Below are positions 6,327-32,600 of a stretch of DNA of 64,000 nucleotides, one piece after another. Location of the stretch: NCBI GenBank assembly GCA_950295325.1, contig OX485805.1:8680501-8744500 (forward strand). Direction: 5' to 3'. The number at the start of each line of letters is the position of its first letter. Within the stretch, counting starts at the first letter, position 1. This DNA comes from Polytrichum commune. Lineage: Eukaryota > Streptophyta > Polytrichopsida > Polytrichales > Polytrichaceae. The notes under the pieces were generated by a model that was not told the DNA's origin, made no database searches, and saw only the letters and a list, made by a program, of their open reading frames with translations. Made by a program: the position numbers and the translations under genes.

Positions 6327-6724
6327 GTTTGGGTCGACCGACCCAAGCCCAAGCCTCGAATAGCCTAATCGTATAAGAATTATTGGTAGAGTTTGGGTCT
6401 TAAGAATATGAATATATTGAATATTGTGTAGTGGTCAAATTATCCAGCAGGAGAGCAATTTTTGGTGACCTTCTAGGGCCGCGCTGGACGTATGTGGACA
6501 TGCCAACAAATATCAGACGATTTCAAATTATAGCCATTTGAATATAATTTCTTGTTGATGGTGGGAAGGATGTTTATTTTGGGATATTGGATTTGTAGGT
6601 TGCAGAGTTTGGGTCGTTCGACCCAAACCAGCTGCAGAGTTTGGGTCGAGTGACCCAAACCAGCTGCAGAGTTTCGGTCGAGCGACCCAAACCAACTGCA
6701 GAGTTTGGGTCGAGCGACCCAAAC
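6327..6724. repeat. 22-bp GTTTGGGTCG palindromes, 32-bp spacing
   Basis: Four palindromes start at 6607, 6639, 6671 and 6703, a 32-bp period. Each is GTTTGGGTCG, two centre bases, then the reverse complement, with a few mismatches. An isolated copy sits at 6327-6348. Spacers share gctgcaga. They lie upstream of the fragment at 5887-6215. Confidence 0.85.
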
Positions 6725-6826
6725 TAGCTGCCCAGTTAATTCTTTATGGGTTTGGGGTTTTATATAGAGGTTTCGGGCGTCTACCGAAACCGTAGTGTTT
6801 CAATATTCACCCATAATGTTTTACGC

Positions 6827-7230: not shown

Positions 7231-7872
7231 TGTCGCGCACCTCTCCATGAGGAGTGCCCGAAACACCATGGGCACAAGGGGGACCCCGGAGTGATACCCG
7301 GGACTTGTGGCGCCGTTGGTGAGAGGGCCCAAGTGATCCTAGTGTGGGTGAGGGCCCCGAGCGTTGGGAACGCCTCCCACCCACGGAGACTAGGAGGCAT
7401 GAGGGTAAGGGCATGAGCTATGCGTAGCTCATGGCGTGGTGATTCTAGAATGCTCAAGATCACCTCAAGCGGAGGTGGGAGCTAGGAGTTATGGCCATTT
7501 GAGTGGGGCGCTGTCCCGGGACAGCGCCCTGCTACAGCAGTGCCTGGGAGTGATTCCCGGGACTGCCAAGGTTCAAACAGGCATAACTTCCTCAAGACTT
7601 GCTCAAATGGGGCAAGTGAGGAGTCCATCGGCATCTACGTGAAGCGTAGATGAAGATGGAGTGGTTGGTTGTTATGATCAGACATCATACAAGGAAGTTA
7701 TGATGGTCTGAAGCTGCTGGGGGGGTTCTAGGCCCAGCAGCTAAAGGAAAATGTCCACTTGGCCCCAACTCTTGGTAGAGAGACAAGAGGTTGGTTGACG
7801 GTGGGGTAGGGGCCCCGCGTAAAGTCCTAGAGGCTTATATGGGTGAGGTGGTGTGGCCTCACCCACCCGAGG
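7231..7872 (+). repeat. Solo LTR, left part (split by the giant element)
   Basis: This is the first 642 bp of a TGTCGC-family LTR, starting TGTCGCGCACC. The preceding 5 bp are ACCCT. The LTR breaks at CCCACCCGAGG (7862-7872) and resumes after the same 11 bases at 24536-24546. Left plus right parts total 973 bp, the length of the intact solo LTR at 53417. Confidence 0.9.
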
Positions 7873-7894
7873 GGAAACTCAAGTATGTGAGCGT

Positions 7895-7925
<31 letters not shown>

Positions 7926-7938
7926 TTGGAGAGCGGAA
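7873..7938 (+). repeat. Left terminal inverted repeat of the giant element
   Basis: It begins GGAAACTCAAG, then TATGTGAGCGTAGAGCGG and four GGAGAGC-type units, then GGAGATTGGAGAGCGG. The reverse complement, with an outer GGACGACACTTG variant, is at 24469-24535. About 55-60 bp match. The outermost 12 bp are less well conserved. Confidence 0.85.
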
Positions 7939-8879
7939 AATTTAGATTTTGTTGGGTAATTTTAGGAGAAGCAGTGCCTATTTCCGTGGAATTAGAGATA
8001 GTTTGAATTCTATATTTGGAAAGGTACCCCCATTCCCGTGGACATAATAACCCAGAATTGTTTGAGAAACCAACGGATCCTATAGGCGTGGAAGATTGCA
8101 TTTGTTATCAAACATCTTATAGTATATGTTTTCAAATGTATCATATTAAATTAGGGCTGACGTCACCAAATTGAAATCAAAATACCATACACAAAATATT
8201 TTATTGGTCAACAAAATGTAGCCAACCTCAAGACTTACAAAAATGGGTAGTTAGTTAAAATAACTATATACTCTAGTTTAGGGCCATCTACACCCTATCT
8301 GCCGGGCATGTCCAATATGGGTAAAATGATCCAAAGAACATGCCATAAAACTCCGTCGCACCATAACAGCCTTCCAATTAAGTCCTTAGCTTAGCCAAAG
8401 ACCTCAAAGACAAATCCCCCAAGTCCAACCTTAGAATCCTCTTGGAAATTTTTGAGGTGACGTGCCGGCTCTTTGAGAACAACATGAATTTCAATTTAAA
8501 AAGTTTGACGAGGTTATGTTCGCGTGCCAAACAAAACTTCCAATTGCTATATAGCAATTGGGATTGGAAGACGGCCAATGTGATTAGTGTGCACAACCAT
8601 AAAATAAACCATCCACACTAATAGAAAGTATGGTCCCCCTATAACTAAGATCTCACACTAAGAGCCGAGAGCTAGATTGTTTTGTGACTAGAAGTTAAGA
8701 GATCCGAACGATGAAGAAAAAATAAAGAATGCAATGCGGGTTGACATATGAATATGAAATAATGGAAAGAAAGAATGAAACTTGCGCCGGATATCAAAAA
8801 TAAAACCAACACACAACTTTTATTAAAGCCGGATAACAACAACAAACGGAGTTATAATCTCCAAAACCAAAATGATAAA
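7939..8879. other. Subterminal non-coding DNA of the giant element
   Basis: No credible gene is seen. It includes CCTATTTCCGTGG at about 7978-7990, repeated inverted near the right end (about 24346), and a related cccattcccgtgg at about 8028. The rest is AT-rich and unique within the window. Confidence 0.6.
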
Positions 8880-11800
8880 CTAAGGGCTTGGAGAACATTC
8901 CCTATCACTCTCCTCACCCTCATTTGCTTCTAACAAGAAAAGATTTCGTGTTCCACGCGAGAAATGACGAACGCGAGGAGGAGATGGGGACTCCGCCTTC
9001 GCAAAACAATCCGCCATTGCACTAGCATACGGGGGAAGCTCAAACGGCTTCGGAGGACTTGAAAACATGTCTCGACAAATGACTGCGACCTCCGCTGGCT
9101 CTCTAAACACCCAAGCAAAAGGATTAGAAACATGATGACACTAGAAAATGAGAATTTGAAATAAAAGCAAACATGGCAAAATATAGAAAGCAAACTTACG
9201 CACAAAGAAATCCGAATGCCCTCTTGGTCATCTTTTGAGGAGGATCAAAGATAGATGTAGACGGTGCGGCAACTGAGCGAGATATACGCGCAGGCTGGGG
9301 ATCGCGCATGGGGAGTAGGAGTGAATTGAAAATGACGGGGTCACTCTCAAGGGCCACAATATGCCGCTCAAGGGAGCGACATGCTGTAATCGAACCACCT
9401 AAAGCAAAGAGAGGTAAAATGTTAGTATGAAAACTAGTCAAGGAAAAATAATGGAAAATTCAAAGTAAGGATGAAGTTGAAAAAGAAGGCGTACCTACAC
9501 CACACTGCCAGTCCATAATAACATCATTCTTGTCGGTGAGAGTAGCGAGAAGGATGGAAAAAAAAACAGGATGCTTCTCACAGGCACCTCGCCAAGGTAC
9601 CCCATCACTGCGCATCGTCTGGCTTGTCTCATCGGTGAAGGTATTCAACCATCCATCTCGTTGGAGGTTGTAACCATACTCTTGTATGGCCTCCTCCCGC
9701 ACTCTAAGAACGGAGTTAACACGAACAAGAACTTTGATGTTGAACTTCCGAGTCTGCAACAATGAAAATGAAATTGAATTGAAATGAAATGGAATTGAAA
9801 TTGAATTGAAATTGAAATGATAAGCAATACGGAAGGGGAAGAGAGGGAGACTTGCTTACCACTCCAGAGGGAACAACGGGAGATTGGAGGTCTAAATCAT
9901 TCATTCCAAACCAATCTTCCGCGACGTAGAAGTCATAAGTGTGTGCCCAATCGAAAATACTCCTAGAAACACTGGCACTCGCACAATGGGCAAGAACAAG
10001 GACACCATGATCATAGAGGTTAGATTTCGCAAATGCAAAAAGACACTCATAGTATGATTCATGGAGCTTGTTCCAAGCAGGAACATCGGTGGAGATGTTC
10101 GGCACCGGCAAATTTTCGGGAATGTCGGCGAAGAGCAAATCGAGGCCCTTGTGAGTTGTAGTCGAGGTGTTCACACGGGAACGACCTGCCCCAACCTGCA
10201 ATTGAAACTTCATGAGAAAACAAGAAGGAAAGAAATAAACAAAGCAAAGGAAAAAAAATTAAGAATTGACGAAGGCAAGTATACAAACCTTGGCAATGAA
10301 CTCTTGGATGCGGGTATATGCGGGGAGGGGACCTCCGGCAACCTCGGAATCCAGCATTAGTTGAACCATGTCCACATTTTCGATGAGGGTAAGCGTGTTA
10401 GTGGCATCCGAAGAGGTGGCACTGGTATCCAAGAGAGCGGCCTTCCTCTTGCGAGGCAAAGAGAGGAGAGAAGTGCCACTATGAGATGGAGTGGCAAGAG
10501 ATTGTGGATGAAATGCAGATGGAGTAACAGAAGGGGCAAGAGAGGGAGCAACGGAGGGAGCGATAGATGGACTGTGTGGAAGGGTGGGTGGCTCAACCGG
10601 GGTCTTAGAAGCAGACCGAGTGAGAATTTGGGAAGATGCTTGAGTGGCGGTCTTCTTTGCTTTGCCCTTTCTCCTTGGTGCCTTAGGAGGAGGAGGGGGA
10701 AGCTCAACGATGTCAGGGTCCTCCAAGGTAACAATATTATTATCCAGAGCACTACCCACAAGGCTAGCAAACAAAGCCTTCTCTTCCCCGGGGACAAATC
10801 CTGCAGCACAATCCAAGTACCATCCACCACCCTGCAAGTGCAATTCGGAAAACTTGTTTGTTTGCGCGGTCGTATACACGCAGAGGCTAGAAAAAATATT
10901 CACCCAGTCCGAGAGGTAGTCCGGCAAGGAAGATGAGGCCAATGCATTCTTCACAACCAATTCTCTCATGATATACCTACATGACAAAACAAGAATGTAA
11001 GAAAACCAACAAAACGAGCAAGAAATGACATTAAGGAGAGGTGCAAAGTGGAGGATAGATGTATTACCGATAGGCTACACGCTTGATAGCGAGAGCCCCC
11101 TCCTCGAACTCCAAGAAATTATCACCTTTGGCAAATGCGATGTCAGGCTTATCGCCGAGATAAGGCTTGAAGGCCTTGTCCCAAAGGACAATCCGCCAAT
11201 GATCAACGTACTCACGAGGGCGCAAGATAGTTTCTGATGCGTCCCAATCAATGTCGACGGAGAGGCTCTCCTCTAAGGTCTCAATTTCAACCGCGACTTC
11301 TTTCTCCAACTGCAGAGAAGGAGATGATTAGATATGAGATAAATGGAATAGAGGAAAATGAAAATGAAGAAGGCCGAGGAATGGATTTACTTGAGCCTAG
11401 AAGGACGCCTTGTGTAGCCAGTCGTCCAAAGCCCTCTCCCTCATAGGCTTGTCGACGGGGAACTTGTTATCTAACCTTTCACGAAGGGGGGCGTTCCACC
11501 AGTGAAGCCACTTAGCTTTGAACGAAGCTTCGACCGGGCATGTGACAATTTTTTGCAATTTTTCAATTGTCATGTCCGTCGAAGAGAACTCATTAAAATG
11601 ACGGTCAATCTGTGCACAAAATAAAAATGATTTGAGTTCAAAAGAATAATAGAGTTGAAGAGTGATTTGGATGAATTGCGTTCAAGAGTGATTTGAGTTC
11701 AAAAGAGTACCTCATGAAATAAATCCTTTCCATTGTCAGGGTGTGCAACGGATATGTACTTCTCAAAAGAACGGGCCCGAATACTTTTGATTGTCCTCTC

Positions 11801-13080
11801 CTGGGCCTTGGTCATAACATTCCAAATCTCAGTGGCCGACCTCTCCGCAACGGGTGTGGTCTCACGGTAATGCCTCACTGCAAGGTCTGCTTGAGCCGAA
11901 ATGTCTCTCTGCAAGAAATGACCTTGTGAGTTCATATAATCGGTATGGAAATTATCTATGTTGGAAGCTCTAAATGATTGAATGCATAAAACCATACCTT
12001 GTAAAGAAACTTAACGAACACATCCGCGGTCAAGGTGTACCAAGTTGGGCGACTCTCCTTTATCTTCTCGCATGCTTTGTAGTCAGATGGCGATATAAGA
12101 TCCTTGAAGGTGGACAACTCTAACCTCCCAAAAGTGCGGATTCGAAGGAGCTTGGCCGGAATGTTTGCCTTGACATAATCATGCTCGGTTGACCTGAGAA
12201 AAAATATGTGAGGAACGTAAGCTGAAAAGAATGGAAAAGAATTGAAACAAAAATGAAAAATGAATGAAAAAAATGAATGAGCTTACCAATTAATGTCGCT
12301 CATGGCATTGAGGAATATACCGGTGTATCCTCTAGGGTCAACAACAATGCAATCCACCGAGATATGCCAACTCTTGTCATCGGCGTGGTGGTTATTGATG
12401 TGTCTCCACCAAGCGGTGAGACGATGATTGCCTTCCCAGACGAAGAACATCTTTCCGGCGAAATGTGCAAGATCCGGATCCTCCTTGAGCTTGGCGTCAA
12501 ATTCTGCGGAGGCCTCTTGCCAGAGAGGGCTCCAAGAGGCCATAATGCCAGGGGGAATGGGGAGGTCCACGGGAACGTCGTTGAAAGAAGACACGTAAAG
12601 AACCCGATCACCCTCTCGGTATCCCATTACAAATTCACATTCCAAGCGCTGCACCTCAACCTCACTGATAGGACGGACGAGAGGGAGGGCTCTCAAGCGG
12701 CATAAAGGAATGGATAAGCGGGACTTACATGTTGGCTTAATCCGAAGGCGTTGGATAACACCAATGGAGTCCTCCTTTTGTGATTTCCGAAGCTCAAGCT
12801 CACACACCACGGGATCCGTGTCGGCAACTGCTTGAACGGCATCTTCGCTCATTGCGAGAGCCTAACAAAAACACAAACAATAAAACCATGCTTAGAAAGC
12901 TAGAACTCAAAAAACTTGCTTAACAAATTATTCAACAACTATCCAACTCACCTCTACTTGTAATGGGCCCTGCGAATTGAGACTCTCAACCTGCACAGCT
13001 TCAACTTCAACCGCGGGGGCCGCAAGAACAACATCCTCTCCAGATTGGGGTTGCGATTGCGCAACCTGTGAAGAGTCCAT
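8880..13080 (-). CDS. ParB-like domain / beta-class DNA methyltransferase-like fusion protein, 11 exons, one in-frame TAG
   Basis: Eleven exons: 13080-12952, 12861-12287, 12193-11998, 11908-11711, 11609-11391, 11309-11068, 10976-10289, 10195-9860, 9753-9495, 9398-9200, 9102-8880. All ten introns (81-106 bp) are GT-AG and the phases join exactly, giving 1088 codons. Residues about 85-235 look ParB/sulfiredoxin-like (IPLCRL..LPLVRP, then GNHRL at 187-191). Residues 750-1010 have the order of beta-class N4/N6 methyltransferases: a motif IV-like LLFADIPE (Asp 773), a KHPVFF segment, then a motif I-like DWQCGVGGS (942-950) and ALESDP. Both motifs differ from DPPY and DPFxGSG, so catalysis is uncertain. 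Exon 7 holds a Ser/Pro linker with basic clusters (APRRKGKAKK, PRKRK). Codon 437 (11397-11399) is TAG where the related copy at 49819-51857 has Trp. Domain calls are by eye. Confidence 0.72.
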
Positions 13081-13252
13081 ATCCTAAGAACATGGAGAAA
13101 ATGAGAATTTCACAAAGAAAAGTCAATAACTTCGTAACTATAAAGAAACAAATCCTCACAAAAACAATACAAGGCCGAGAGCAAACTACAAATGGAAATG
13201 GCCGAATGCTAAGTCAAGTGGTGAACTCTAGCACTAACTTACCTACGAATGA

Positions 13253-16200
13253 GAGGCCTCGGATCCGAGGCCTCTTTTCCTACCTCCTCCTTATGCACTA
13301 CCCAAAAGAAAAAGGCCGAGAGAAATCTTATGTGAACATAGCAGTTTGACTTTTCAAGCACATACATTGTCTCCAAAATGAGGCCTCGGATCCGAGGCCT
13401 CTTCACAAACCTTCTACTCATGTAGTACCCAAAACAAGAAGGCCGAGAGCAATCTTACACGAACATAACATTTTGATTTTTCTAGCATAAAATTGACACA
13501 AACATGAGGCCTCGGATCCGAGGCCTCTTCCCAAAACACATACTTATTCACTTCCCAAAACAAGAAGGCCGAGAGGATTCGAAAATGAACATAAGATTTT
13601 CATTTTTCAAGCACATACCTTGACACAAAAATGAGGCCTCGGATCCGAGGCCTCTTCACAAAGTACCTACTTATGCACTACCCAAAACAAGAGGGCCAAG
13701 CGCATTCAAAAATGAACATAACATTTTAACTTTTCATGCACATACCTTGACACAAAAATGAGGCCTCGGATCCGAGGCCTCTTCCGAATGCCCCTCCTTA
13801 TGAAATACATACTACAGAAAATGGCCGAGAGAATTAAAAAATGAACCTAACATTTTCATTCTTCAAGCACACAACCTGACTCAAAAATGAGGCCTCGGAT
13901 CCGAGGCCTCTTCCAAATGCCCCTCCTTGATGATTTTAAAACCTAACCAATTTACTTGTTACATGGCTCACGGGTGTTCACCCGTGAGGTTCACATTTGA
14001 TGATGTTCCAGGGGAGGTCACTCCATTGCCAAGTTGCATCACCAAAATGGGTCAAAATTTTCTCAAATGTTTTTGGGACGTAGATATACATGATATCTAT
14101 TACGGAATAAAATATCATGACCAAATTTGATGACCATATTTTTCTAGAAAACATACCATTTCTACCTAGAATGACGCAGAATTCAACTAAAACAATTACT
14201 AGAAAAAATGAAGATGACAAAAAATTTCAAAAAAATATACAAAAGATATAATCAATAGTTATGAATATAGAGAAAAAAAATCATAATTTTTAAAAATATT
14301 TGACATGGAGACATCTCCCCGTGATGATGCTAAATCCTACCCAAGTTACCTGTTACATGGCCCACGGGTGTTCACCCGTGGGGCACACATTTGATGATGT
14401 TAAAACCTAACCAAATTACTTGTTACATGGCCCACGGGTGTTCACCCGTGGGGCACAAGGCAGAGAGCAAGGAACCAAAAAACCAGGAAAGTTGACATTC
14501 TATTAGTTTGAGAAATCAAGAACCTCACCTCTCTCAAAACCCTACCTTTCACATACTCAAACTTACACAAATAGGAGGCTTCGGATCCGAGGCCTCTTCC
14601 CCTAGCTGGTTCTTATGCACTACAGAAAACAAGACAAGACCGAGAGCAATTGATGTGCACATAACATTTTGATTTTGCAAGCACAAACCTACCCACAAAT
14701 AAGAGGCCTCGGATCCGAGGCCTCTTCCTATGGCTCCCACTTATGCACTACACAATAGAAGAAATGGCTGATAGCAAGGAATCAAGAAAGCAAGAAAGTT
14801 GACATTCCATTAGTTTGAGAAATCAAGAACCTCGCCTCTCTCAAAACCCTACCTCTCACATACTCAAACTTACACAAATATGAGGCCTCGGATCCGAGGC
14901 CTCTTCCCCTAGCTGCTTCTTATGCACTACACAAAACAAGACAAGGCCGAGAGCAATTGATGTGCACATAACATTTTGATTTTTCAAGCACAAACCTACC
15001 CACAAATAAGAGGCCTCGGATCCGAGGCCTCTTCCTATGGCTCCCACTTATGCACTACACAATAGAAGAAATGGCCGATAGCAAGGAATCAAGAAAGCAA
15101 GAAAGTTGACATTCCATTAGTTTGAGAAATCAAGAACCTCGCCTCTCTCAAAACCCTACCTCTCACATACTCAAACTTACACAAACAAGAGGCCTCGGAT
15201 CCGAGGCCTCTTCACAAACCTCCTACTCATGTAGTACCCAAAACAAGAAGGCCGAGAGTAATCTTACACGAACATAACATTTTGATTTTTCTTAAATAAA
15301 ATTGACTCAAACATGAGGCCTCGGATCCGAGGCCTCTTCCCAAAACACATACTTATTCACTACCCAAAACAAGAAGGCCAAGAGCATTCAAAAATGAACA
15401 TGAGATTTTCATTTTTCAAGCACATACCTTGACACAAAAATGAGGCCTCGGATCCGAGGCCTCTTCACAAAGTACCTACTTATGCACTACCCAAAACAAG
15501 AAGGCCAAGAGCATTCAAAAATGAACATAAGATTTTCATTTTTCAAGCACATACCTTGACACAAAAATGAGGCCTCGGATCCGAGGCCTCTTCACAAAGT
15601 ACCTACTTATGCACTACCCAAAACAAGAAGGCCAAGACCATTCAAAAATGAACATAAGATTTTCATTTTTCAAGCACATACCTTGACACAAAAATGAGGC
15701 CTCGGATCCGAGGCCTCTTCCGAATGCCCCTCCTTATGAAATACATACTACAGAAAATGGCCGAGAGAATTCAAAAATGAACCTAACGTTTTGATTTTTC
15801 AAGCACAAACCTTGACACAAAAAAGAGGCCTCGGATCCGAGGCCTCTTCCCAAAGCTCCTACTTATGCACTTACCAAAACACATTTCCCCCCCCCCCCGC
15901 AGCTTCAGACCTCCATATCTTCCACGTGTGGTCTCCAAATCTAACAATCAACCACTCTTTCGTCATCTACGTGAAATGTAGATGCCGATGGACACCTCAC
16001 TTGCCCCATTTGGGCAAAAATCAAGGAAGTTATGCCTGTTTAAACATTCGCAGTCCCGGGAGCCACTCCCAGGGGACTGCTGATCGAGGGCACTAAAAGG
16101 AGGCCTCGGATCCGAGGCCTCATTTTCAAACTAGTGTACATACTCAAAAACAAGCAAAGTGCCTCATTCATACAAGCTATACGTTGAATCAAAAAACCTC

Positions 16201-18204
16201 AAGTGGCCTCGGCTGAGAGGCCTCGGATCCGAGGGCTCACACACAAAGTAATTTACGTACTCCAAACCAACCATAGTGCCTCATCCGTACACTAGTTTTG
16301 GAACACATAAAAGAGGCCTCGGATCCGAGGCCTCTTCTCCTAGCTTCTACATATGCACTTAACAAAACACATTTCCCCCCCCCGGCAGCTTCAGACCTCC
16401 ATATCTTCCACGTGTGGTCTCCGAATCTAACAATCAACCACTCTATCGTCATCTACGTGAAATGTAGATGCCGATGGACACCTCACTTGCCCCATTTGGG
16501 CAAAAATCAAGGAAGTTATGCCTGTTTGAACATTCGCAGTCCCGGGAGCCACTCCCTGGGGACTGCTGATCGAGGGCACTAAAAGGAGGCCTCGGATCCG
16601 AGGCCTCATTTTCAAACTAGTTTACATACTCAAAAACAAGCAAAGTGCCTCATTCATACAAGCTATACGTTGAATCAAAAAACCTCAAGTGGCCTCGGCC
16701 GAGAGGCCTCGGATCCGAGGCCTTACACACAAACTAGTTTACATACTCAAAACCAACCAAAGTGCCTCTTCCGTACACTTGTTTTGGAACACATAAGAGA
16801 GGCCTCGGATCCGAGGCCTCATTCACAAACTAGTTTACATACTCAAAACAAACCAAAGTGCCTCATCCGTACACATGTTTTGGAACACATAAAAGAGGCC
16901 TCGGATCCGAGGCCTCATTCACAAACTAGTTTACATCCTCAAAAACAAGCAAAGTGCCTCATTCATACAAGTTATACTTTGAATCAAAAAACCTCAAGTG
17001 GCCTCGGCCGAGAGGCCTCGGATCCGAGGCCTTACACACAAACTAGTTTACATACTCAAAACCAACCAAAGTGCCTCTTCCGTACACTTGTTTTGGAACA
17101 CATAAGAGAGGCCTCGGATCCGAGGCCTCATTCACAAACTAGTTTACATACTCAAAACAAACCAAAGTGCCTCATCCGTACACATGTTTTGGAACACATA
17201 AAAGAGGCCTCGGATCCGAGGCCTCATTCACAAACTAGTTTACATCCTCAAAAACAAGCAAAGTGCCTCATTCATACAAGTTATACTTTGAATCAAAAAA
17301 CCTCAAGTGGCCTCGGCCGAGAGGCCTCGGATCCGAGGCCTTACACACAAACTAGTTTACATACTCAAAACCAACCAAAGTGCCTCTTCCGTACACTTGT
17401 TTTGGAACACATAAAAGAGGCCTCGGATCCGAGGCCTCATTCACAAACTAGTTTACATACTCAAAACCAACCAAAGTGCCTCTTCTCTACACTTGTTTTG
17501 GAACACATAAAAGAGGCCTCGGATCCGAGGCCTCATTCACAAACTAGTTTACATCCTCAAAAACAAGCAAAGTGCCTCATTCATACAAGTTATACTTTGA
17601 ATCAAAAAACCTCAAGTGGCCTCGGCCGAGAGGCCTCGGATCCGAGGCCTCACACACAAACTAGTTTACATACTCAGAACCAACCAAAGTGCCTCATAAA
17701 GACATGCCTAACCAAGTTACTTGTTACATGGCCCACGGGCGTTCGCCCGTGGGGCACAAGGCAGAGAGCAAGGAATCAAAAATGGAAGAAAGTTGACATT
17801 CCATTAGTTTGAGAAATCAAGAACCTCGCCTCTCTCAAAACCCTACCTCTCACATACTCAAACTTACACAAATATGAGGCCTCGGATCCGAGGCCTCTTG
17901 CCCTAGCTCGTTCTTGTGCACTACACAAAACAAGACAAGGCCGAGAGCAATTGATGTGCACATAACATTTTGATTTTTCAAGCACAAACCTACCCACAAA
18001 TAAGAGGCCTCGGATCCGAGGCCTCTTCCTATGGCTCCCACTTATGCACTACACAATAGAAGAAATGGCCGAGAGCAAGGAATCAAGAAAGCAAGAAAGT
18101 TGACATTCTATTAGGTTGAGAAATCAAGAACCTCACCTCCCTCAAAACCCTACCTCTCACATACTCAAACTTACACAAATATGAGGCCTCGGATCCGAGG
18201 CCTC
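13253..18204. repeat. Array of about 33 22-bp GAGGCCTCGGA palindromes
   Basis: The perfect 22-bp palindrome is GAGGCCTCGGA followed by its reverse complement, so GGATCC is at the centre. It recurs about 33 times between the ParB-methyltransferase start (13080) and the basic-protein gene. From 13253 to 13890 the spacing is 126-129 bp. From 16703 to 17631 three-palindrome blocks form a higher-order repeat of about 310 bp. Spacers between copies drift but the palindrome is nearly invariant. Two about 200-bp fragments of the TGTCGC LTR family are embedded at about 15888-16096 and 16373-16576. The long open frame through 16670-17812 is a by-product of the repeat. Confidence 0.9.
13968..17753. repeat. 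Second palindrome type, CCCACGGGTG-TT-CACCCGTGGG class, four copies
   Basis: 22-bp inverted repeats with 10-bp arms and a TT centre occur at 13968-13989 (CTCACGGGTG variant), 14361-14382, 14431-14452 and 17732-17753 (CCCACGGGCG variant, with the compensating change in the other arm). Each is preceded by ttacatgg. The compensating change suggests the symmetry itself is maintained. Confidence 0.8.
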
Positions 18205-18370
18205 TTGCCCTAGCTCGTTCTTGTGCACTACACAAAACGAGACAAGGCCGAGAGCAACATGATGTGCACATAACCTTTTGATTTTTCAAGCACAAACATA
18301 CCTTTCCTAACATGTTCCTAAACCCAAATCAAGACAAGGCCGAAAGCAAGTCAAGCTGATATTCCAAATA

Positions 18371-19391
18371 CTATGAGAAATCAAGGTGATAGAAAGCAAA
18401 AACGTTGGCAAACATAGCTTGGCCGAGATCCCGACACCTTACCAGAATTTGGAGTATGCCCTCCACTGAAGCCCCTATATTGGCGCCACTATCTTCCGAG
18501 GTCCCGTCCTCTGTCGGCGATATTGGAGTGCTTCTCGAATCTCCGAGGTTTACTTGCGCCATTCCTCTCCCGCGGCCACGCCCTCGCCTTGATGTTTGTT
18601 GTGTTCCGCCCGCCTTGCTTCGCAGAAATCTTGAAGCAGGGGTCACAACATCCACACTTAGGGTTTCTGCGCATGGGTCTCCTCCTTCAGCTCTTTCGCG
18701 GCCTCCCAACAAATTTGATTTCAGATCTTCCTTTGCCGCTTTCCTCTTGGACGCCTTCATTTTTTCTCTTGCTTGAATCGTTGGTTGTCCCGACATCGGT
18801 TCTCGCTCTTCTAACGCCTTCTCAATTTGTTGTGCTACCTCCTTGTTGTCTTCTTCATAGATATTTCCACTATCTCCACTCCCCCCCTCTTCCTATATTT
18901 AAGATAAAACAATGTTTATAACAATGATGACAAACCATAATATCTAAAAGAAAAGTTGTTTCACAGTTGAATATGTTCTACCATTTTCATTATGTGCTCA
19001 AACAACTGAATATATGGAGAACCCGAAGAATACGTACGACACTTGTAGAGTTTGTCTCTTCGCGTGAGTCCTCTTGGATGCTGTCGTTTCCCAACTCCTC
19101 CACTTCTGCCATTGGTTGCGCTTTACTTCCGTCCGCCTCTTCTACAATCGGTGATAAATGAAAAGGCCGAATCCCACAGTCTAACCTCCACGAAGGTTTC
19201 CGCAGGTCCTTTATGCTTTGGCTCAAATCCTCGGGCGTCCCACGGCCCTCAATTGGCGCTTTCCTTGCCTGTGACTTTTGTGTCCTCACTGTCTTTCTCT
19301 TCTTATCAGTGTAATGTGTAGACGATCGCCTCCTCTTCTTTTTCTTAGATGGTTCCGTTGTCGGAGGTTGTGAATTGCCTATTTCCTTCAT
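18371..19391 (-). CDS. Small basic nuclear-type protein, divergent from the transposase
   Basis: Exon 1 is 19391-19038 (118 codons, phase 0, donor GTACGT). Exon 2 starts at 18892 after AATATAG and stays open to a stop at 18371, giving about 291 aa if read through. A strong donor (CTG then GTAAGG) at 18443/18442 suggests the last exon may end there and the gene continue into the array. The N-terminus is very basic (SKKKKRRRS, DKKRKT), followed by an acidic stretch (EEADG, EVEELGNDSIQEDSREE) and an arginine/glycine run (RRGRGRGRG). This looks like a nuclear, DNA- or RNA-contacting protein; I recognise no family. It starts 356 bp from the transposase ATG, head to head. The second element has a similar gene at 63076. 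Confidence 0.6.
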
Positions 19392-19746
19392 GTGTTCAAC
19401 CCTCCCGCAATTCAGACCTATTCGCTCTATTTCCTTTCCACAACCTCACCACATCAAACTCACACATTGGAAAGAAAGTGAGCAATCGCATTCTTCTCAG
19501 TATATAATTGCAATACCTCCCGATGGGAGGCGCGCTTTACTATCTGACAACCATCTTTATAATTAGGGGTATTTTTTTTTAGGATGCCTGACAGTTTTGT
19601 CTCCTTCCTGATATTCATGCGTATTTGTTTATAACTTCATCGTCATCACCATTCTCCTTCTCTATGCATCTTTGCATCTTTGTTCCTTCACGTTTGCTTT
19701 CTCTGCCTTCATGGCTTCCACCTCAATTCTTCCTCCCGTCTCTGAG
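19392..19746. promoter_or_regulatory. Divergent promoter region between basic gene and transposase
   Basis: A 355-bp gap separates the two start codons. It contains ctttataattag at about 19554, a possible TATA element for the transposase, and gtatataattg near 19499. Two upstream in-frame ATGs (19672, 19711) exist. I prefer 19747 because its product MAELRSHG aligns with MATIRAHG at the start of the second transposase. Confidence 0.4.
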
Positions 19747-22700
19747 ATGGCCGAACTTCGTTCACATGGCATCGGGGTCCCTATTATATTCCCCATTGGT
19801 GCACAAGGTATTGTTGTTGTCTCGGAGCTTCATCTTAGCATTAGGTTCTCTTTGAAAGCTAGTACAATATGGGTAGAGCGTGAGATCTACCATCCTGATA
19901 CTGGATTGCTCGTTCATACCTTCCATGAGACCTCCAAGATAACTGACAATGGCAATGTAGTGTGGGAGCTTGGCGCGGGAAAGTATAGGGTTTGTGGCTG
20001 GCCAGATTCTCAGATGGAAGTGTCAACAGAAATCCTTCCTCCTCTTCGATCATCCACTGTTGCCTTTAGCACACCCCCCGTAATAAGCGTCAAGACCGAG
20101 CCTGGTGTAGACAACGTTATAGACTTGTCTGATTCTTCGAGTGAAGATGTACCAGTGTATAAGGTTGCTGTCCATGATTCCCCTCATTTGTTTCCCTTTG
20201 CATCCTACATAACGCCTTCTCCATCTAGCTCTGTCCCTTCAACTCCTTCGGTCCCTACGTCTAAACCTCCTCAAACTATTGTTCAATGTCTTCGTCGTCT
20301 TGGCTCTATGCCCGGTAGTAAGAACGTCCTCAAGAAAATAGATTACGATAAAATCAAAATCCAAGAAGTTAATCACCTTCCCCCTCGTTTCGATGGCACC
20401 CAGTTATTTGTCCTCCCTGCAGCAGAAGTCTCTTCATCTCAAACCAGGGCCAAGTCGTTGGACGGCATGGACAAGCAATATGATGGCCATGTTTGGACTA
20501 AGACTCAAACCACCAACATTACAAACGACGTTGGCCTTGCATTTCGTTCCTCTACCTGTGTTGGCCATCTCCAATGCCAAAACCCGAGTTGTGATTACCT
20601 TCAACGCGCCCATCGTACCTCTAAGGTCAATGACACAGAATTTGAAGGTTTCACTAAAGATCCTTTCCGTCTCTCTGGCATTGTGCCATCCGGATCTACT
20701 CTTGTCTGCAGGATCTGTAAAGAGCCTCCCAAATGCATTGCACTATGCGAGGCCAAAATCTTCTACGTCCATGGGAAGGAGTCATCCCAAAGAGCCTGCA
20801 TTCATCTCGGTTCTCATCAACATCCAGTGAAGGTTGGAGACTGCAGAGACAGTCGGAAGCGTATCAATGCACTTCTTGAGGAGCACGTTGAACGTACGCC
20901 TCAAGCCACCCATAGCAAGATCGTCCTTGAAGCTAGCAAGGACATTGTTGGTGAGTTTCTCCTTTCTGGCGATAATGACACACACCGTCTCTTCTCTTTA
21001 AAAGAGCTTGAACCTGTTTTTGAGAGCTGTAGAGAGTTGAATTCCCCAAACCTTCGCTCTAAGGTTACCTCTTTCAAATATTTGCGGAGGTTTGGTGTTA
21101 TGGATGGCATCGCAAAGCTCCGAGGCGTTAGCAATTGGGCCTACGTCCAACGGAACCAATTCCCAGGACAAGGTGACGATACAGACAAGGTGTTCGTCTT
21201 CAAGATGTCGGAGGTTGGTCCTGGAAGTGGAGTGGATTTGGTTCGTCGGATGCAACCGGGTGGGGACCTGGAGAACGCGTGGATGATGTCCGATCACGTG
21301 AAACGGGTCAAAGGGTGGACCACCATGGCCGCTCATGTGTACGATGGGACTTATCAACGGGTCATGACCATTTCATGTTGTGATTTCCAATCGGAGGATA
21401 AGGATGCCCAAGTTCTCTTCTGGCAGAACCTCAACCACGTCATGGCCCGACACGGTATCCCACATCCAAACTTTATAGGCTTCATGGCGGACAGTGCCCA
21501 AGCCAATTGGAACGCTGTTCGCATTGTATATGGTTCGGGGGATCCCAAAGTTCCAATGGAGGGTCGTGAGCGCACTTGTTTTTTCCATTGGAAACAATCG
21601 CTCGAAAAACATACGAAATCGTATATAAAGCATGAGTTACAAGACCAACATAGACATCTTTGCCTTCAATATCGAAATGCGTCATCTATGGAAGAGGCTG
21701 AGACTAGGTACCTAGCTATCAAGGCTTGGTGGGCGTCATCGAATTGTACAAGTGAGGACGGTCTCAAGCATCTTCAGCTCTGGCTTGCTTTTTGGCACTT
21801 CCGCTACCTTCAATGGGGTGGTTTCATGGAACTGGTACATCTCCTTCATAATTCATTATTGGTTTTTCTTGGATTCGATTTCCTCTCTCTGTACATTTAT
21901 ATTAATACTTGATTTCTCCAATCAGGAAAAGGTTTTAACCCAAGACCAATTGGCCGAGATGCCGTCGTGCAATCTTGCGGAGTCCGTCCACAACAAATGG
22001 CTTCAAGCCTCCGGCAACAAGGGTGGAGATCTATACGTGGCTACGGTTGACGACTACATTCGCGCCTTCTTACAAGTTGTTGCATACTACCAGTTCCTTA
22101 AAGGTGGAATTGGCGGAGATGGTCCAAGCAAAGAAGAACTAAAGCTCAGGGGTGCTCAACGTCGAGCTCAGCGTACTGGCGACCCCACAGTGTTGCAGAA
22201 GGTCTTGCTTGACATGTCCGGTGGGGAAGAATTTTGCACTCGCGATCCACACCTTGAGGGCGCCGAGGTGTTTGGATCGCAGAAGCGAAGATCAGACACT
22301 CCAATTGGTGATGATGGCGAGACCCACCGCCCCGATACCGTGAACTTCTCTCGCCCTCCCCCCGGTAAGCGTGTCACTCGATCTCAACCAGAAACACTAC
22401 CCACTATCATTGAGGAGTCTTCCCCCTCTGTACAAGAGGTTCAAGTGCCTTCACCTGCAGGACTTGGTTTCCAGCGTGTCACTGCCGTGCAAGAAACCAA
22501 AGTAGATGTCTCTCTTTGGCATATTGCCCGCATACCCTATACGTCTGGGAAGTCTTGTTGGGCTAATCATGCGGGCACGAAGAAGAAGTGCACCGCAAGA
22601 ATCGTCACTAATAATAAGAGCGTCCCTGCGCCGACCTACACCGGTATGTGGCATCATTACAAACTCCAATCTATGAAGCGCACGGACTTTGTCTTTTGCC

Positions 22701-23383
22701 CCGACGACATTGAGCGTTGCGTGAAGGGCCCTCGTCGGAAATGGGTCATGCCGTTCTCTGCTCATGACCAGAAGCCTCCTATTCCCCCAATCTGGCCCGT
22801 GAAGATTGGTACCAACCTCACCCGCTCGGATATCTTCGCCCTTGAGAACGCAGGTTTTCAACTCCCACCAAAGGAGCGCATCACACCGACTCAACTCTTC
22901 ACCAACTCTGCTCCCCCGCTGGATATGTCTGGAATCCGTGTTCCAGAAAACCCCGACATGATCCCTCCGACAAGATTGTCCAAGCTTGTTCGGCGATCCA
23001 GTAGCGCACCTTCGGCAAAGCAGAGGCAGATGGTGGCCTCTGCTGAAGCTATGCATGGTACCGTTATGAAGTTAACTATGATCCCTCAACCGGGATTTGG
23101 TTGCATTATCACACTGCAGTCCAAATCAGAACCCCAACCACCGATCTACCAAGTGACAGTCAGTTCTCTTCCAGAGTGCAACTGCGCATTTTTCTTGGAT
23201 ATGATTTCCAAGTTCAGCCGCAAACGAAATTCTTATTTGAATTGTAAGCATTTGTATTACATTTTCATCAAGGTTTCTAATTTGGATGCGGAAGTGAATT
23301 TGTTCATTCACGCCCCGACATTTAGCTTCAACGAAGTCAAACTCATCCTCGAAGGGGGTCTTTTGACAAAGTCTACTTCTTAG
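19747..23383 (+). CDS. MULE-like transposase with SWIM zinc finger (copy 1)
   Basis: Two exons, 19747-21834 and 21926-23383, are joined across a 91-bp GT-AG intron at phase 0, giving 1181 aa. Features in order: an N-terminal domain; Cys/His-rich segments (CVGHLQCQNPSC, then CRICKEPPKC and CIHLGSHQHPV) resembling the zinc-binding region in front of MULE transposases; a catalytic-like core with VYDGTYQ, GFMADSAQANWNAV and GRERTCFFHW, the last like the MULE C-x-x-H block; then, in exon 2, a SWIM finger C1114-x-C1116-x19-C1136-x-H1138. The frame is intact, so it could be functional. It is a close relative, block by block and in intron position, of the gene at 58719-62553. An AATAAA at 23468 may be the poly(A) signal. 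The element's target duplication supports the MULE assignment. Confidence 0.85.
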
Positions 23384-23544
23384 GATTTATCTCAGCCTAG
23401 CAGTACTTTGGGCTATGATATATGTGTCCATTTCTGGACCTCTTGTGAAGCAATAATTGATTGATATAATAAAGGTATAATCTCAATGATTATTTTTATT
23501 TGCTTCAAAATTTTGTATTACAATGCTTCCTATGTCTATCAACT

Positions 23545-24012
23545 CTATTTCCGTTTTGCATACTTCTTAGATGATTGCGAGGGAGGTGGACCCGGTCGAA
23601 GCAAATCCATATAAGAAATTGTCTTATCTCTCTTTCGATCCTTCAGCGGAAGATGATGCGGCGTCATTCCTCTCATCCGTTCGCGAAATGAAAGAGACTT
23701 CGAAGATTCCCCTTCCACCTTCACCTCCTCCTCCGTTTCGTTCGATTTGTCTTCATCTAAATCAACATCCTTCTCCGGCACATCTTCCTGCCTTTTTTCC
23801 TTTTTCTCATATTGTTTTTGCTCCTCCTGCACCCTCCACCTCCATGCTTGTGTAGACTGCGAAAATGGAGTCAGCTCGTAGTCATCACTACTTTGATTTC
23901 CAGCAGCAAACTCAAATTCCGGCGATGGATTAAATGGAATATGAGGATCTCCTAGACTTCTAATTTCCTTCTCCCATCCTAATCCAGCAAACATGTCTCT
24001 CTCATCTCCCAT
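23545..24012 (-). CDS. Small charged protein of unknown function, tail-to-tail with the transposase
   Basis: A single-exon frame of 155 aa starts MGDERDMFAGLGW (or 7 codons earlier, at 24033). It has an acidic/basic middle (KKEKRQEDVPEKDVDLDEDKSNETEEEVKVEGE), likely coiled or disordered, and a basic end (KKYAKRK). It ends 162 bp beyond the transposase stop, convergent with it. I recognise no family. Its place between transposase and right terminus makes it a candidate third element-encoded protein, but an isolated frame of this length could also be chance. Confidence 0.45.
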   Translation of the reverse strand: MGDERDMFAGLGWEKEIRSLGDPHIPFNPSPEFEFAAGNQSSDDYELTPFSQSTQAWRWRVQEEQKQYEKKEKRQEDVPEKDVDLDEDKSNETEEEVKVEGESSKSLSFRERMRGMTPHHLPLKDRKRDKTISYMDLLRPGPPPSQSSKKYAKRK

Positions 24013-24033
24013 TGTGTGCAACTGTATATACAA

Positions 24034-24468
24034 TTATGTTGGGTATGAGTCCAATTTATAATCTATTCGGCCACAAACGATAATTGCTAAAGTCCAAGCT
24101 ATAGAATAGACTCACATATAAGACAAAGAGAAAAGTGATGAATAAAAACCAAGCAAGTTTATTATTTTGATTCCTTTGTATATTGATTGACTCATTCTTC
24201 AATTATACCAATCTCAAAAAATCCATTTTCATTGATTTTTCTTGTAGTCATCATTGGTTTTAATAATTCAACCACCTCACGGTTTCCAAACTTAATGAGA
24301 CCATTTCAAATTCAGGGTTTTTATTTTATTTTATGACCTATACATCCCACGGAAATAGGTCCAATTTTTTTACTATTATTGTCAAATTCTGGAATATTCT
24401 TGGTATATTCTTGGCTATTTTGGAATATCCTAATTTTAGTTTGACAAGTTTACTATTTTTATTTCCTC
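24034..24468. other. Right subterminal non-coding DNA
   Basis: AT-rich, with no gene seen. It includes the inverted copy of CCTATTTCCGTGG near 24346-24358 that pairs with the one at about 7978. Confidence 0.6.
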
Positions 24469-24535
24469 TACGCTCTCCGCTCTCCAAATCTCCGCTCTCC
24501 GCTCTCCGCTCTACGCTCACATACAAGTGTCGTCC
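24469..24535 (-). repeat. Right terminal inverted repeat of the giant element
   Basis: Read on the minus strand it runs GGACGACACTTG, TATGTGAGCGTAGAGCGG, GGAGAGC units, then GGAGATTTGGAGAGCGG, matching the left terminus. It abuts CCCACCCGAGG (24536-24546). Confidence 0.85.
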
Positions 24536-24546
24536 CCCACCCGAGG

Positions 24547-24877
24547 CCGAACGGCAAGGCCTCCATGGGCATTGGCCCATTGTGAGGCCATAGTTGCCTA
24601 GTATGGTTCGGGTTGTTGTAGTGTTGCTCCGGCAATGCGATGATCAACATGGGATTGGACTTCCATGGATGGAAGTCCACATCTAGGAATGGGTTACCGA
24701 TTAAGGGGTGAGTCCCGAAAGCAAAGTAGGAGGGTTGGTTCCCTCCTATGAACTATAAGGTCCGGGGTAGGAGGAGCTAATCATTAGCATGGCGGAATGC
24801 GAATGGTTAGCGCTCGTAACCTTTGCTCGGATTGAAAATTGGCAAGATTGTTAAGGGACCTAGCAAGGGTTGCGACA
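24547..24877 (+). repeat. Solo LTR, right part
   Basis: This is the last 331 bp of the LTR begun at 7231, ending GGGTTGCGACA. It is followed by ACCCT (24878-24882), which matches the 5 bp before 7231 and so proves that the two parts were one insertion. Confidence 0.9.
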
Positions 24878-27702: not shown

Positions 27703-28384
27703 AGACAAATAAATAATTTTATTCATCACGACAATGGCCTCAAGCCTTGGAAACCCTTTCATAATTGCAGCCTCCAAATGGCCCAAACCCCACCTAAATA
27801 GGTTTACACTTGAAAGCATTGAATGGAGTTAAAATATTTGTTAAAATATACCGTCATGACACTTGAAAAAATTAATGTGGCCGCCACCCTTCCTCCCAAC
27901 AGCGTATGTCATATCCACACAAGACAAAAAAAAAAATTAAATATCATAGACTAAGTCATATGACGGCTGGGGTATCAGAGGGGCATTGAAAGATGCGCAT
28001 TTTCTACTATAAAAAAAAAACGGGGAATTATGTCAGGAGGTTTGAAATAACCTCTGCAGGAGAACAAGGCAGGAAAGGCATCCAATGAGGAAGTCCGAGA
28101 AACGGAGGTGGATAGTATAAAGGGACGCACCCCCCAAAAGTCTGTCCTTTTTTGCTCTTCTCCCACTCTTGAATTCGTAGAGAGAACTCTTAGTCGGAGC
28201 TATACTTCAAGGTTCGTGCATGCTGCCGTTCATTAGCACTTATCCACAGCATGCAAGTTCATGAGCACCTACCCACAGCATGGAAGCCCACCGTGAACTT
28301 TGCAATGAGCTTAAAAACAACACATTTCGGATTATCCGCCGCATTATCCGCCGGATTTTGAGGGTTTTAGCGTGACTCTTATCG

Positions 28385-29450
28385 GGTTTGGGTCGGTCGA
28401 CCCAAACCCCTCCGCTACTGTGGGCGGGTTTCAGCCTGACCCTGATTAGGTTTGGGTCGGTTGACCCAAACCCCTCCACTAGTGTGGGCGGGTTTCAGCC
28501 TGATCCAAACCTATCCCCTCGTGAGGCAGGTACTAGAGTGGACAAGGAGCCCATCCTGGCCCTCAAGGTTTGGGTTGGTCGACCCAAACCTATACCCTCC
28601 TGAGGCAGATACTATGGTGGACACGGAGTCCATCTTGCCCCTCAAGGTTTGGGTCGGTCGACCGAAACCTTTACTCTCATGAGGCAGGTACTAGGGTGGA
28701 CACGGAGTCCATCCTGCCCCTCAAAGTTTGGGTCGGTCGACCCAAACCTATCCCCTCGTGAGGCAGGGTCTAGAGTGGACAAGGAGCCCATCCAGGCCCT
28801 CAAGGTTTGGGTCGGTCGACCCAAACCTATACGCTCATGAGGCAGGTACTAGGGTGGACACGGAGTCCATCCTGCCCCTCAAGGTTTGGGTTGGTCGACC
28901 CAAACCTATACCCTCATGAGGCAGGTACTAGGGTGGACACGGAGTCCATCTTACCCCTCAAGGTTTGGGTCGGTCGACCCAAACCTATACCCTCATGAGG
29001 CAGGTACTAGGGTGGACACGGAGTCCATCTTACCCCTCAAGGTTTGGGTCGGTCGACCCAAACCTATACCCTCATGAGGCAGGTACTAGGGTGGACACGG
29101 AGTCCATCTTACCCCTCAAGGTTTGGGTCGGTCGACCCAAACCCACCCCCACGTGAGGCAGGTACTAGGGTGGACTTTGAGCCCTTCCTGCCCTATAAGG
29201 TTTGGGTCGGTCGACCCAAACCTTATCCCACAGTGGGCATGTACTAGGTTTGACACATCCCATTGCCCTTACATAATTTGGGACGGTCTACCCAATCCAT
29301 CCCCACTGTGTGGGTGCTCTCTGTTATGAGCCTGAACCCATCTTGCGAAAAGGTTTGGGTCGGTCGACCCAATTTATCCCCACTGTTTGGATGGAGTCTG
29401 GATGACCATGATCCCATCGTGCCACAAGGTTTGGGTAGGTCGACCCAAAC
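28385..29450. repeat. 79-bp tandem array with GTTTGGGTCG palindromes, upstream of the DUF7869-like gene
   Basis: About 14 units, mostly 79 bp apart (28728, 28805, 28884, 28964, 29042, 29121, 29200), each carry GTTTGGGTCG, GT, then the reverse complement. Spacers read gaggcaggtactagggtggac and acggagtccatc. Units decay toward both ends. It ends about 190 bp before the DUF7869-like start. Short overlapping frames inside it are repeat by-products. Confidence 0.9.
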
Positions 29451-29641
29451 CCAAACCCACCGTGTGGATGGGCTCTAAATGATAGTGTGTCCACTGGCCA
29501 ACCCAAACCTTTACAAAGCCAATGGCATAGCATTCATATGAACATGTATGAACACTGTGTATTTGCAATATTGTTTATATAAGATGGTTTTTGTATTATT
29601 CGATTGGAACCTACAATTTTGTGGTTTCTTGATAAGGTTCA

Positions 29642-32600
29642 ATGTTCATGTGTGTAGGCAGAATGAATGGGTTTAGTGAAAGAGGGGATTGGTCATCTGA
29701 AGATATGGCCACTTGGCCATCTGCATCTGAGGATGAGATAGACATTGTCGGGGAGGATACTTTGGCTGACAGTGCAGATGAAGATCATTTGGATTTACCT
29801 TCGCCTTCCGTACCGCAATGTCCCATTGCTGAATGTACGGGACTCTCAAGGGCTTCATGGGTGAATTTGGAGGTGATACTTCTTAATGACAGTGGAGTTG
29901 TTGTGGCGGAGGGGATTTGTCGCAACACCCATCCACAAGATTGCATTGATGAAAACCCGCTTGGCACCGAGGACGTTGGGGTTGTCATATTGGAGTCGCT
30001 CGTTCATTCCGAGGTGGATCCCACTCATAGGTTCTCCCTCCGGAGGTGGCCATTGAGGAATGTCACGATTGATGGTGTTTCCTTGTGTGAACATGAGCAA
30101 CGACACTTGCAAATCCAAAAAGAGCAGCAATCAAACATGCGGCCACGCAAGGGTCAAAGAAAGTACGATACATTGGCACGTCCTGCTCCGTCTGCAACTG
30201 ATTGTAAACGTCAAAGGTTGCTCGGGGAGGAGTCCATTAGAGAAGTTGCCACAAAGGATTGTTGTGTGCATCGTTGTTGCCAATTGTTTCCCCGGGATAA
30301 ATTGTTGGCCATCCGCGAAGAAATGTGGCTTGGTGATTTCCGTCTAAGATCCACCAAAAAACTTGATGTGCATAGGGCGATACATATGAATGGGGCGGGT
30401 CGCAAGGTCATCACCATTGAGAGCATAGACGTGTGTTGCAAGGCATGGTACACCATTCATGGTGTGTCGAAAACGGACTTTTATAGACAAGTTGCTTATG
30501 CCAAGGAAGGCTGCCGGTCCCGTCACCATGGGAACGTGGGTTTAAAGAAACCTAGGGAAGCAACAAGGCAAGCAACGGCCACTCTAGCAACCATAATTGT
30601 CCCACTTGCCGATGCAATGCCGCACAAAACACGCACACTCACAACTGGTGAAAAGGTTGTGGAGAAAGTTCTTCCCACAGGCACAAAATGGAAAGACATA
30701 TTGTTGGATGTAAATGCAGTTGGGGAGAAGATTGGGTTGGAGCCAATTTCATCGTCAAAATTGAGTGCAATCAAGAAAGCAAACTTCAGCGAATACATTA
30801 CAAAAAGACGAGGGGACAAATTTGCAAGGTGCTCTAATTGCGAGAAGTTGAAGCGCCTTCGGGATGCACACACGATGGGTACCGAGTCGTTTGCGGTGCA
30901 TCAATTGAACTATTTCAAGCACGTAAACATGCAAGAGGCACACCGTAATGATTACTACACAAATAGAGCGTTGTCCATCTCCAGGCCCTTGGAAGTTCTT
31001 ACGGTCATCCATGACAAAATGGACCATGCCAAGACAGCCTCCCCATGTTTTGCAAAACGAATCAAGGCCACGGATGGGTTTTTTTAGTTGCCTGTATCGG
31101 TTACAGGTGATCTTCGAAACAATGTTGACATACCCTAAATATTGTTGTATTTTATTATGTGATGTGCTTGAGAACATTGATTCACTCAAAACGATTTAGA
31201 CATACATAGATACTAATCACTTTGGGTTGGCATTGTAGGAATGATTGCACATGGACACGGTGATGTCAAGTTTGCCCATTATGCTCTTGATTTGTATCCA
31301 GCAGATTCAAACCACACGATAGGGTCATTTGCAAGGCTTTTGCGTGATTTAGAGAAACCGCCAGCCTATTCTTCAGGATTGTTATTTGAAAATACGGGTT
31401 CAACACCTTTATATGAAGCAGTGATGGATGGAAAAGATGTATGCTTGCATTCGTTGCCCGAACCACCCAGTGAACCCGTGATAGCCAAGAAGTTGCCCCC
31501 CACTTTGCGTGTCCAATTGGACAATTGTGCCAAGGACAATAAAAGTAGATATGTATTTGCATATTGGTCGTTGTTGGTTGCGAAAGGCATTTTCAAGGAG
31601 GTTTTTGTGTCCTTCCTATTGGTAGGCCACACGCACGACGATATTGATGCATCTTTTGGATGGTGGAGCATGAAGTTGCGGGAGGAGGATTTTCCTACAA
31701 TCCCGTTATTGATGAAGTCGTACATGGATTTGGAGAACGTTCCCGTCATCCCCCATATGATTGAGGAGGTGCCAGACTTCAAGGCATTTATAGAACCTTA
31801 TATTCGAAGTGGAGCTCATCGATTGATTGGCCATACGAAGGCACAACAATTCCGGTTCTACATGCGTGACGATGGTGTCCCGGCCATGCAATACAAGTTG
31901 TTGTGCACGACACAAGACTGGAGCCCGCCAGAGGGTCTCCTTGTGTGGTGCGTGGATGCGGATGGGAAGACCATGTTACCGGATGGAGAGCCTAGGCCTT
32001 GCAAGCCAATAGCCATGAAGAATTTGGAGGATATTTTGAAAGGTATATCAGGCTTCATTCAATATTGGGAGAGTTTGAAGATAGCGGATGTTGGCGGATC
32101 ATGTTGGCATCGTTATGGGAGTTGGATACATTATTGGACACGTGTTCGTGCGGCCTTGGCAGACCTCCACCAAGATAGCCCTCATACTTTGAGGCACGGA
32201 TTTTGGCCACAAACTCGTATCGATGTACAAGCTTCGGAGGCTAGTCTTTTGAGTAATGGAGAGGTTCGTGAGGAGTTTGATATGGACGACCATTACGTTG
32301 GGCCTGCTAGTCAACGTCCCCCACCATCTTTCCGCATTGCAGTGGATTGTCATGAAGGTTATATGCTCATTTTGCGTCCTGGAGATGAGACATATGCAAA
32401 GCCAGTGTGGGTGGCAAGAGCTTTGTCCAATCCAAATTTTGTATCTTCCAGCCCTCATTTTCGACAAATACAAGTAGAGTACTACCGACCGACAGCACGG
32501 AATGAAGATGTTGTTCGGTATTATACAGGCTGGGATACAAACCAACACTTTCGGTGGAAGGTGGATTCTGAGCACGGTCCATCTTGGGTAGATACAGATT

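Follow-up and report, generated by a model that had tools for sequence, protein, structure and literature searches.

A 16.7-kb mobile element of probable Mutator-like type carrying a ParB-methyltransferase gene and a palindrome array in Polytrichum commune

The closest described relative in gene content is Sola1-1_Ec32 of Ectocarpus, a 21.5-kb DNA transposon which, according to the main text of its description, encodes on the opposite strand a 1,104-amino-acid protein with ParB-like and N4/N6 DNA methyltransferase domains; this protein was suggested to bind and modify the transposon's own DNA (PMC12477816, 2025). The same paper mentions similar ParB-methyltransferase proteins in transposons of green and red algae, for which it cites Iyer 2011 and Petroll 2025 (PMC12477816). 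Because these features have been described in Sola1-1_Ec32, the ParB-methyltransferase cargo and the idea of self-modification are already known. Here we describe an element of 16,664 bp in Polytrichum commune, located in a stretch of 64,000 nucleotides (assembly GCA_950295325.1, contig OX485805.1, C3:8680501-8744500 in the genome searches) that is referred to below as the window and whose numbering is used throughout. Both elements are giant DNA transposons with an opposite-strand ParB-methyltransferase of similar size. As far as the published main text allows comparison, they differ in that Sola1-1_Ec32 has a Sola1-type transposase and resides in a brown alga, whereas the present element looks to be of the Mutator-like element (MULE) type, resides in a land plant, is present in high copy number and contains a palindrome array. 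The word "minisatellite" is absent from that main text (PMC12477816); that text was not searched for palindromes, and an array in the algal element is possible. A MULE-type element with a ParB-methyltransferase cargo or a palindrome array was not found in the literature at the level of titles and abstracts, most subscription papers being beyond reach. As far as this search shows, the new features are the MULE-type family in a land plant, its copy number, the conserved palindrome arrays and a discordance between the ParB and transposase genes.

Plant MULEs of the MuDR kind have target-site duplications of 9 to 11 bp, long terminal inverted repeats (TIRs), a SWIM pattern, a WRKY/GCM1-like finger and an RNase-H-like core. 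The present element has the duplication range, the TIRs, the SWIM pattern and the finger in common with autonomous MULEs, may share the core and differs from them in its size, its ParB-methyltransferase cargo, its palindrome array and the lack of a Pfam MULE match. In bacteria, ParB acts with parS, a 16-bp palindrome. A ParB N-terminal fold (predicted here) and a gene adjoining a palindrome array are common to both systems, but here the ParB part is fused to a methyltransferase-like part, the setting is a eukaryotic transposon and the palindromes are 22 bp long. Taken as a whole, the explanation that we consider probable is an autonomous-type MULE of ∼16.7 kb whose ParB-methyltransferase would most likely load on the palindromes and modify the element's own DNA.

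Borders, mobility and gene plan

A sequence-only reading of the window had placed a 16.7-kb unit inside a solo long terminal repeat (LTR), with 11 bases common to both junctions and inverted ends rich in GGAGAGC. Alignment of the flanks indicated that the solo LTR is split at exactly this point into a left part (7231..7871, plus strand, 96 to 97% identical to four intact LTRs) and a right part (24536..24877, plus strand, 92 to 96% identical to the same LTRs); once joined, the flanks aligned with the intact LTRs, the only surplus being one CCCACCCGAGG. Each of these four LTRs, all in the window, contained the CCCACCCGAGG site once (positions 34488, 40502, 54048 and 5245, the last on the minus strand). 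The intact relative of 973 bp on which the reading relied was located at 53417-54389, with a 5-bp duplication. A fifth and more diverged LTR (1371-1989), 88% identical to the left LTR part, differed at the insertion site.

The borders required a correction of one base. A constant G preceded GGAAACTC in all 11 copies inspected, indicating that the element extends from 7872 to 24535 (plus strand), a result also set by the aligned copies and the paired ends, and that the target-site duplication is the 10-bp sequence CCCACCCGAG. Its two copies, placed by flank alignment and sister copies and without strand assignment, lie at 7862..7871, where the left LTR part ends, and at 24536..24545. The element therefore begins one base earlier than had been proposed, and the eleventh base common to both junctions is a coincidence. 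The description of the ends was upheld: the left TIR (7872..7940, plus strand) contains GGAGAGC sub-repeats and, from 12 bases in, agrees with the inverse of the right end (24466..24535, minus strand) in 49 of 54 columns of the alignment.

The source genome (407.8 Mb, 64 contigs) was searched with both termini. On its contig C8, accD comes after rbcL, a plastid gene order that points to a land plant or a near streptophyte relative and speaks against an algal origin and against the fungal one that short introns might suggest. The left 301 bp returned 41 rows from 465 candidates and the right 300 bp returned 43 rows from 491, the best 40 candidates being scored per end, so that end counts are lower bounds. 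After one 53-bp left fragment was dropped and three right fragments were merged with their neighbours, 40 left and 40 right ends were available. For 28 of the 40 scored left ends, a right end in the same orientation lay at a distance of 12.8 to 34.5 kb, compared to a chance expectation of 0.12 pairs; 12 left and 12 right ends among those scored had no partner. Duplications were read in 11 of the 28 pairs (the window and ten others, seven of which belong to the sister copies c1 to c10 described next), and a perfect 10-bp duplication was found in the window copy and 9 of the 10 others, or 10 of 11 copies. The lone exception, at C1:28014371, had transposase-like sequence at its right flank. Ten sister copies (c1 to c10) were read in part. 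Outside the repeat array, nine were 97 to 99.8% identical to the element and c8, of which only the left part was found in the stretch read, was ∼96% identical; several contained insertions or internal deletions. The four intact LTRs of the window served as paralogous empty sites. The paired termini, the duplications and these empty sites showed that the 16.7 kb moved as a single unit, as the earlier reading had proposed.

The element has the following plan: left end, ParB-methyltransferase gene (minus strand), palindrome array, small divergent gene, transposase gene (plus strand), small gene and right end. Conservation of this plan was examined by genome searches with the ParB exon (best 150 of 1,278 candidates scored) and the transposase (best 92 of 2,099). 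When 66 of the 150 ParB rows were entered, an opposite-strand ParB exon was found in 27 of the 28 end pairs, at 4.3 to 5.4 kb from the left end in 24 of the 27 and at 3.7, 3.7 and 12.6 kb in the others. With all 150 rows, 73 of the 92 transposases had an upstream ParB exon within 40 kb, always divergent and never in the same orientation, and 19 had none upstream within that distance. A transposase relative (P0039) and a ParB relative (P0110) were each listed with a longest contig of 674,632 bases, which is probably the same contig. The small divergent gene is a putative third gene for a basic protein (18371..19445, minus strand), with open blocks at 18371-18892, open in 7 of the 8 sister copies in which it was found, and 18993-19445, open in 7 of 7. 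A putative fourth gene of 155 amino acids lies between the transposase and the right end (23545..24012, minus strand); its matched part was open in all six sister copies found, two of them only partly covered.

Palindrome array, transposase and ParB-methyltransferase gene

The array (13252..18204, no strand) is built of repeat units of several lengths that contain a 22-bp palindrome, GAGGCCTCGGATCCGAGGCCTC, in 28 exact copies and 5 with one mismatch. Across the whole window, 68 perfect palindromes with arms of at least 8 bases were detected, compared to 0 to 3 in ten Markov simulations, and 31 of the 68 had the array core, so that the palindrome array reported beside the ParB gene is real. In an ungapped alignment, mean pairwise identity was 98.7% in the GAGGCCTCGGATCCGAGGCCTC palindrome but 44% and 54% in the 50-bp flanks. 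The stretches read of the ten sister copies held 26 to 44 exact palindromes, and 1,903 exact GAGGCCTCGGATCCGAGGCCTC copies were present genome-wide, with none for a reversed control. Around a diverged ParB gene at 49804, whose ParB exon is 40% identical, lie copies of a second palindrome, TTGTCGGATCCGACAA, which has the core of GAGGCCTCGGATCCGAGGCCTC. Between 40 and 58 kb, 27 of the 34 TTGTCGGATCCGACAA copies with up to 4 mismatches were exact, and 180 were found in the genome; the contrast between palindrome (97%) and flanks (86% and 70%) was weaker than for GAGGCCTCGGATCCGAGGCCTC. In this part of the window (40937-57800), the ParB gene is truncated, running from 49804 to ∼51840 inside a long TTGTCGGATCCGACAA array, and the solo LTR at 53417-54389 interrupts the region.

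Such an array could also be an ordinary satellite, homogenised by unequal exchange and gene conversion and unrelated to the ParB protein. The variation in array length among the ten copies would fit this explanation, as would the solitary position of one listed genomic GAGGCCTCGGATCCGAGGCCTC copy and the inverted-repeat arrays near other window repeats, such as that at 28362-29470 by a DUF7869 gene. However, units that differ in length and sequence have only the palindrome in common, with a sharp edge of conservation, and palindromes with the same core and other arms lie around the diverged ParB gene at 49804. We regard a satellite origin as rather unlikely, although it is the strongest of the alternatives.

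The transposase gene (19711..23383, plus strand; exons 19711-21834 and 21926-23383) encodes 1,193 amino acids and is open in the window copy. The proposal that it specifies a SWIM-finger transposase was supported: a SWIM-type zinc finger pattern, CNC...CKH, was read in the translation (23177..23251, plus strand), but Pfam SWIM did not report a finger in the element's own protein. In an alignment of 28 transposase members (A1), two of them from the window, Pfam SWIM matched one relative with an E value of 6.8e-5, most members ending before the finger, and gave E=0.075 for the second window transposase. Structural matches, obtained with VIA-align here and for the ParB exon below, pointed to a WRKY/GCM1-like finger and to a predicted core whose nearest solved structure is an IS256-family transposase. 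A PDB sequence search with the transposase alignment yielded one chance match, and no relatives were detected in viral contigs searched with a transposase piece and with both the transposase and ParB alignments. On the basis of duplication length, TIRs, SWIM pattern and structural matches, the element looks to be of the MULE type, in agreement with the earlier identification. Against this stands the result for Pfam PF10551 (MULE), which had no match in the window transposases or the 28 members of A1 at E values up to 10; in so diverged a family, a missed hidden Markov model match would leave the MULE superfamily possible.

The absence of a PF10551 match is also what would be expected of a DNA transposon from another or unnamed superfamily with MULE-like traits, and a ParB-methyltransferase cargo has been reported, in the published main text, from a brown-algal Sola1 element (PMC12477816). 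The 10-bp duplications, the TIRs, the SWIM pattern, the WRKY/GCM1-like finger and the IS256-family nearest structure argue against this origin, as does the weak similarity of one transposase relative to PF00872, the Mutator family of bacteria (E=0.18), and we consider it improbable. A second, diverged element occupies 57840-64000 and continues past the window edge. It has transposase matches at 62553-60418 and 60083-58746 (minus strand; ∼45% identical), a terminus rich in GAGCGG near 57840 and an upstream array with two exact AAACCCTGTGCGTTAACGCACAGGGTTT palindromes, an order resembling that of the main element.

The ParB-methyltransferase gene (8880..13080, minus strand) can be written as a predicted GT-AG model of 1,087 codons in eleven exons: 12952-13080 (placed by eye), 12287-12861, 11998-12193, 11711-11908, 11391-11609, 11068-11309, 10289-10976, 9860-10195, 9495-9753, 9200-9398 and 8880-9102. 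It had been called a complete gene, which is wrong for the window copy because TAG interrupts the reading frame at 11397-11399. This codon was not a stop in any of the ten sister copies; c8 has a stop close by. In the ten exons compared (all but the first), five of the ten copies were fully open, three had a common one-base deletion in one exon and two were incomplete. Many of the 150 scored ParB exons were free of stops. The ratio of nonsynonymous to synonymous differences (pN/pS) was 0.475 when pooled over pairs, 0.327 for c8 versus the window and 0.735 for c10.

The second exon (12287..12861, minus strand) has the motif EGNHRLTAW and is predicted to adopt the ParB N-terminal CTP-binding fold (AlphaFold2 predicted local distance difference test score of 86). 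The ParB name is supported because the first 14 structural matches of this model were all ParB, Noc, KorB or ParB-like proteins. Relatives of the exon numbered 230 in public proteins, of which 120 were among the matches listed. Pfam searches of 39 ParB-exon sequences gave scattered single matches and no ParB family, and a PDB sequence search with the ParB alignment gave none; the whole ParB-methyltransferase protein had no match in a protein database, probably because unspliced predictions are shorter. A beta-class-like DNA methyltransferase domain is tentatively assigned to the exons within 9495..10195 (minus strand), with a candidate motif I of DWQCGVGGS...ALESD and a presumed motif IV that reads DIPE in the window copy and not the canonical (D/N/S)PP(Y/F/W). 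Weak matches around motif I were obtained to DpnA (E=0.012), phrog_18293 (E=0.0023), a phage CR8 methylase (E=2e-3) and PF01555 (E=0.22), and the C-terminal part weakly resembles N6-adenine methylases.

Percent identity to the window's ParB and transposase genes was compared in the 73 linked rows over part of each gene; these rows derive from the best-scored lists, and, with a limit of 40 kb, the ParB exon and transposase of two adjacent elements may in some cases have been linked. At transposase identities of 97 to 100% (38 rows), the ParB exon was 93 to 100% identical. At 91 to 96% (27 rows), ParB identity was 63 to 66% in 21 rows and 81 to 92% in 6. At 84 to 88% (8 rows), it was 86% in one row, 64 to 68% in six and 100% in one, the last (transposase 84%) being a nested element whose upstream ParB exon belongs to the host element. 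This non-monotonic relation suggests either that the ParB module has been exchanged between elements or that evolution has been very uneven. In the listed part of C1 (to 13.98 Mb), GAGGCCTCGGATCCGAGGCCTC clusters lay beside ParB exons of 81%, 95% and 98% identity, in addition to one solitary copy. The one element of the 66% class there, at C1:49660, had neither GAGGCCTCGGATCCGAGGCCTC nor TTGTCGGATCCGACAA.

The disabled state of the gene in the window copy and some sister copies could mean that the ParB-methyltransferase is passenger DNA of the Pack-MULE style, without a role for the element. This is very unlikely in view of the opposite-strand ParB exon in 27 of 28 pairs, the many stop-free exons and pN/pS values below 1, the diverged ParB classes that accompany transposases, and the 230 relatives in public proteins. 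A chance assembly of repeats between two LTR halves inserted separately, for which the density of nested repeats in this region might speak, was ruled out by the paired ends and the perfect duplication, and has a negligible probability given also the four single-site LTRs and the near-identical copies of the interval elsewhere.

Other repeats and nested insertions

An LTR retrotransposon occupies 33857-40850, with LTRs at 33857-34831 and 39871-40850 and GCAGT on both sides. At 28362-32722, the DUF7869 gene (31217-32722, E=3.4e-42) lies by an array of 79-bp repeats that includes GTTTGGGTCG-type inverted repeats; similar inverted repeats were present at 6601-6731 and at 60145-60268, the latter within or close to an intron of a transposase gene. 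The sequence at 58380-58440, with a GGTTCGAATCC box, resembles a tRNA-derived short interspersed nuclear element; ARAGORN called no tRNA there, and tRNA and Rfam scans of the window found none. Inside a sister copy, a further insertion region (C1:62628600-62637700, loci L016 and L031) contained one GAGGCCTCGGATCCGAGGCCTC copy and a transposase whose catalytic part is 84% identical, and no ParB gene was found in this stretch.

Possible self-recognition by the element

Under the favoured explanation of an autonomous-type MULE, the transposase would bind the element ends and move the element by an RNase-H-type reaction. The ParB-methyltransferase would most likely load on the palindromes at the centre of the element, in the way that ParB loads on parS in bacteria, and its methylase part would most likely modify the element's own DNA at N6-adenine or N4-cytosine. 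Such self-modification would, most likely, help the element to resist host silencing or to distinguish its own copies.

A more specific reading is put forward tentatively. In this working ParB-parS-like self-recognition in a plant, loading on the palindromes that separate the two gene blocks would be specific to each ParB class, methylation of the element around them would protect or identify it, and the ParB gene and its palindromes would form a module swapped independently of the transposase, like the specificity modules of phages. The reading is supported by the split of ParB identities into the 63 to 66% (21 of 27) and 81 to 92% (6 of 27) groups at transposase identities of 91 to 96%, and by the element at C1:49660 that has neither palindrome.

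The near-constant presence of the ParB-methyltransferase gene beside the palindrome array suggests that the element may identify its own DNA and mark it chemically. Should the ParB protein prove to bind the array and mark the element, eukaryotes would have a counterpart of ParB-parS that serves self-recognition or anti-silencing, and plants a possible source of methylation at N6-adenine or N4-cytosine. Self-marking is a prediction that can be tested directly, given the conserved palindrome.

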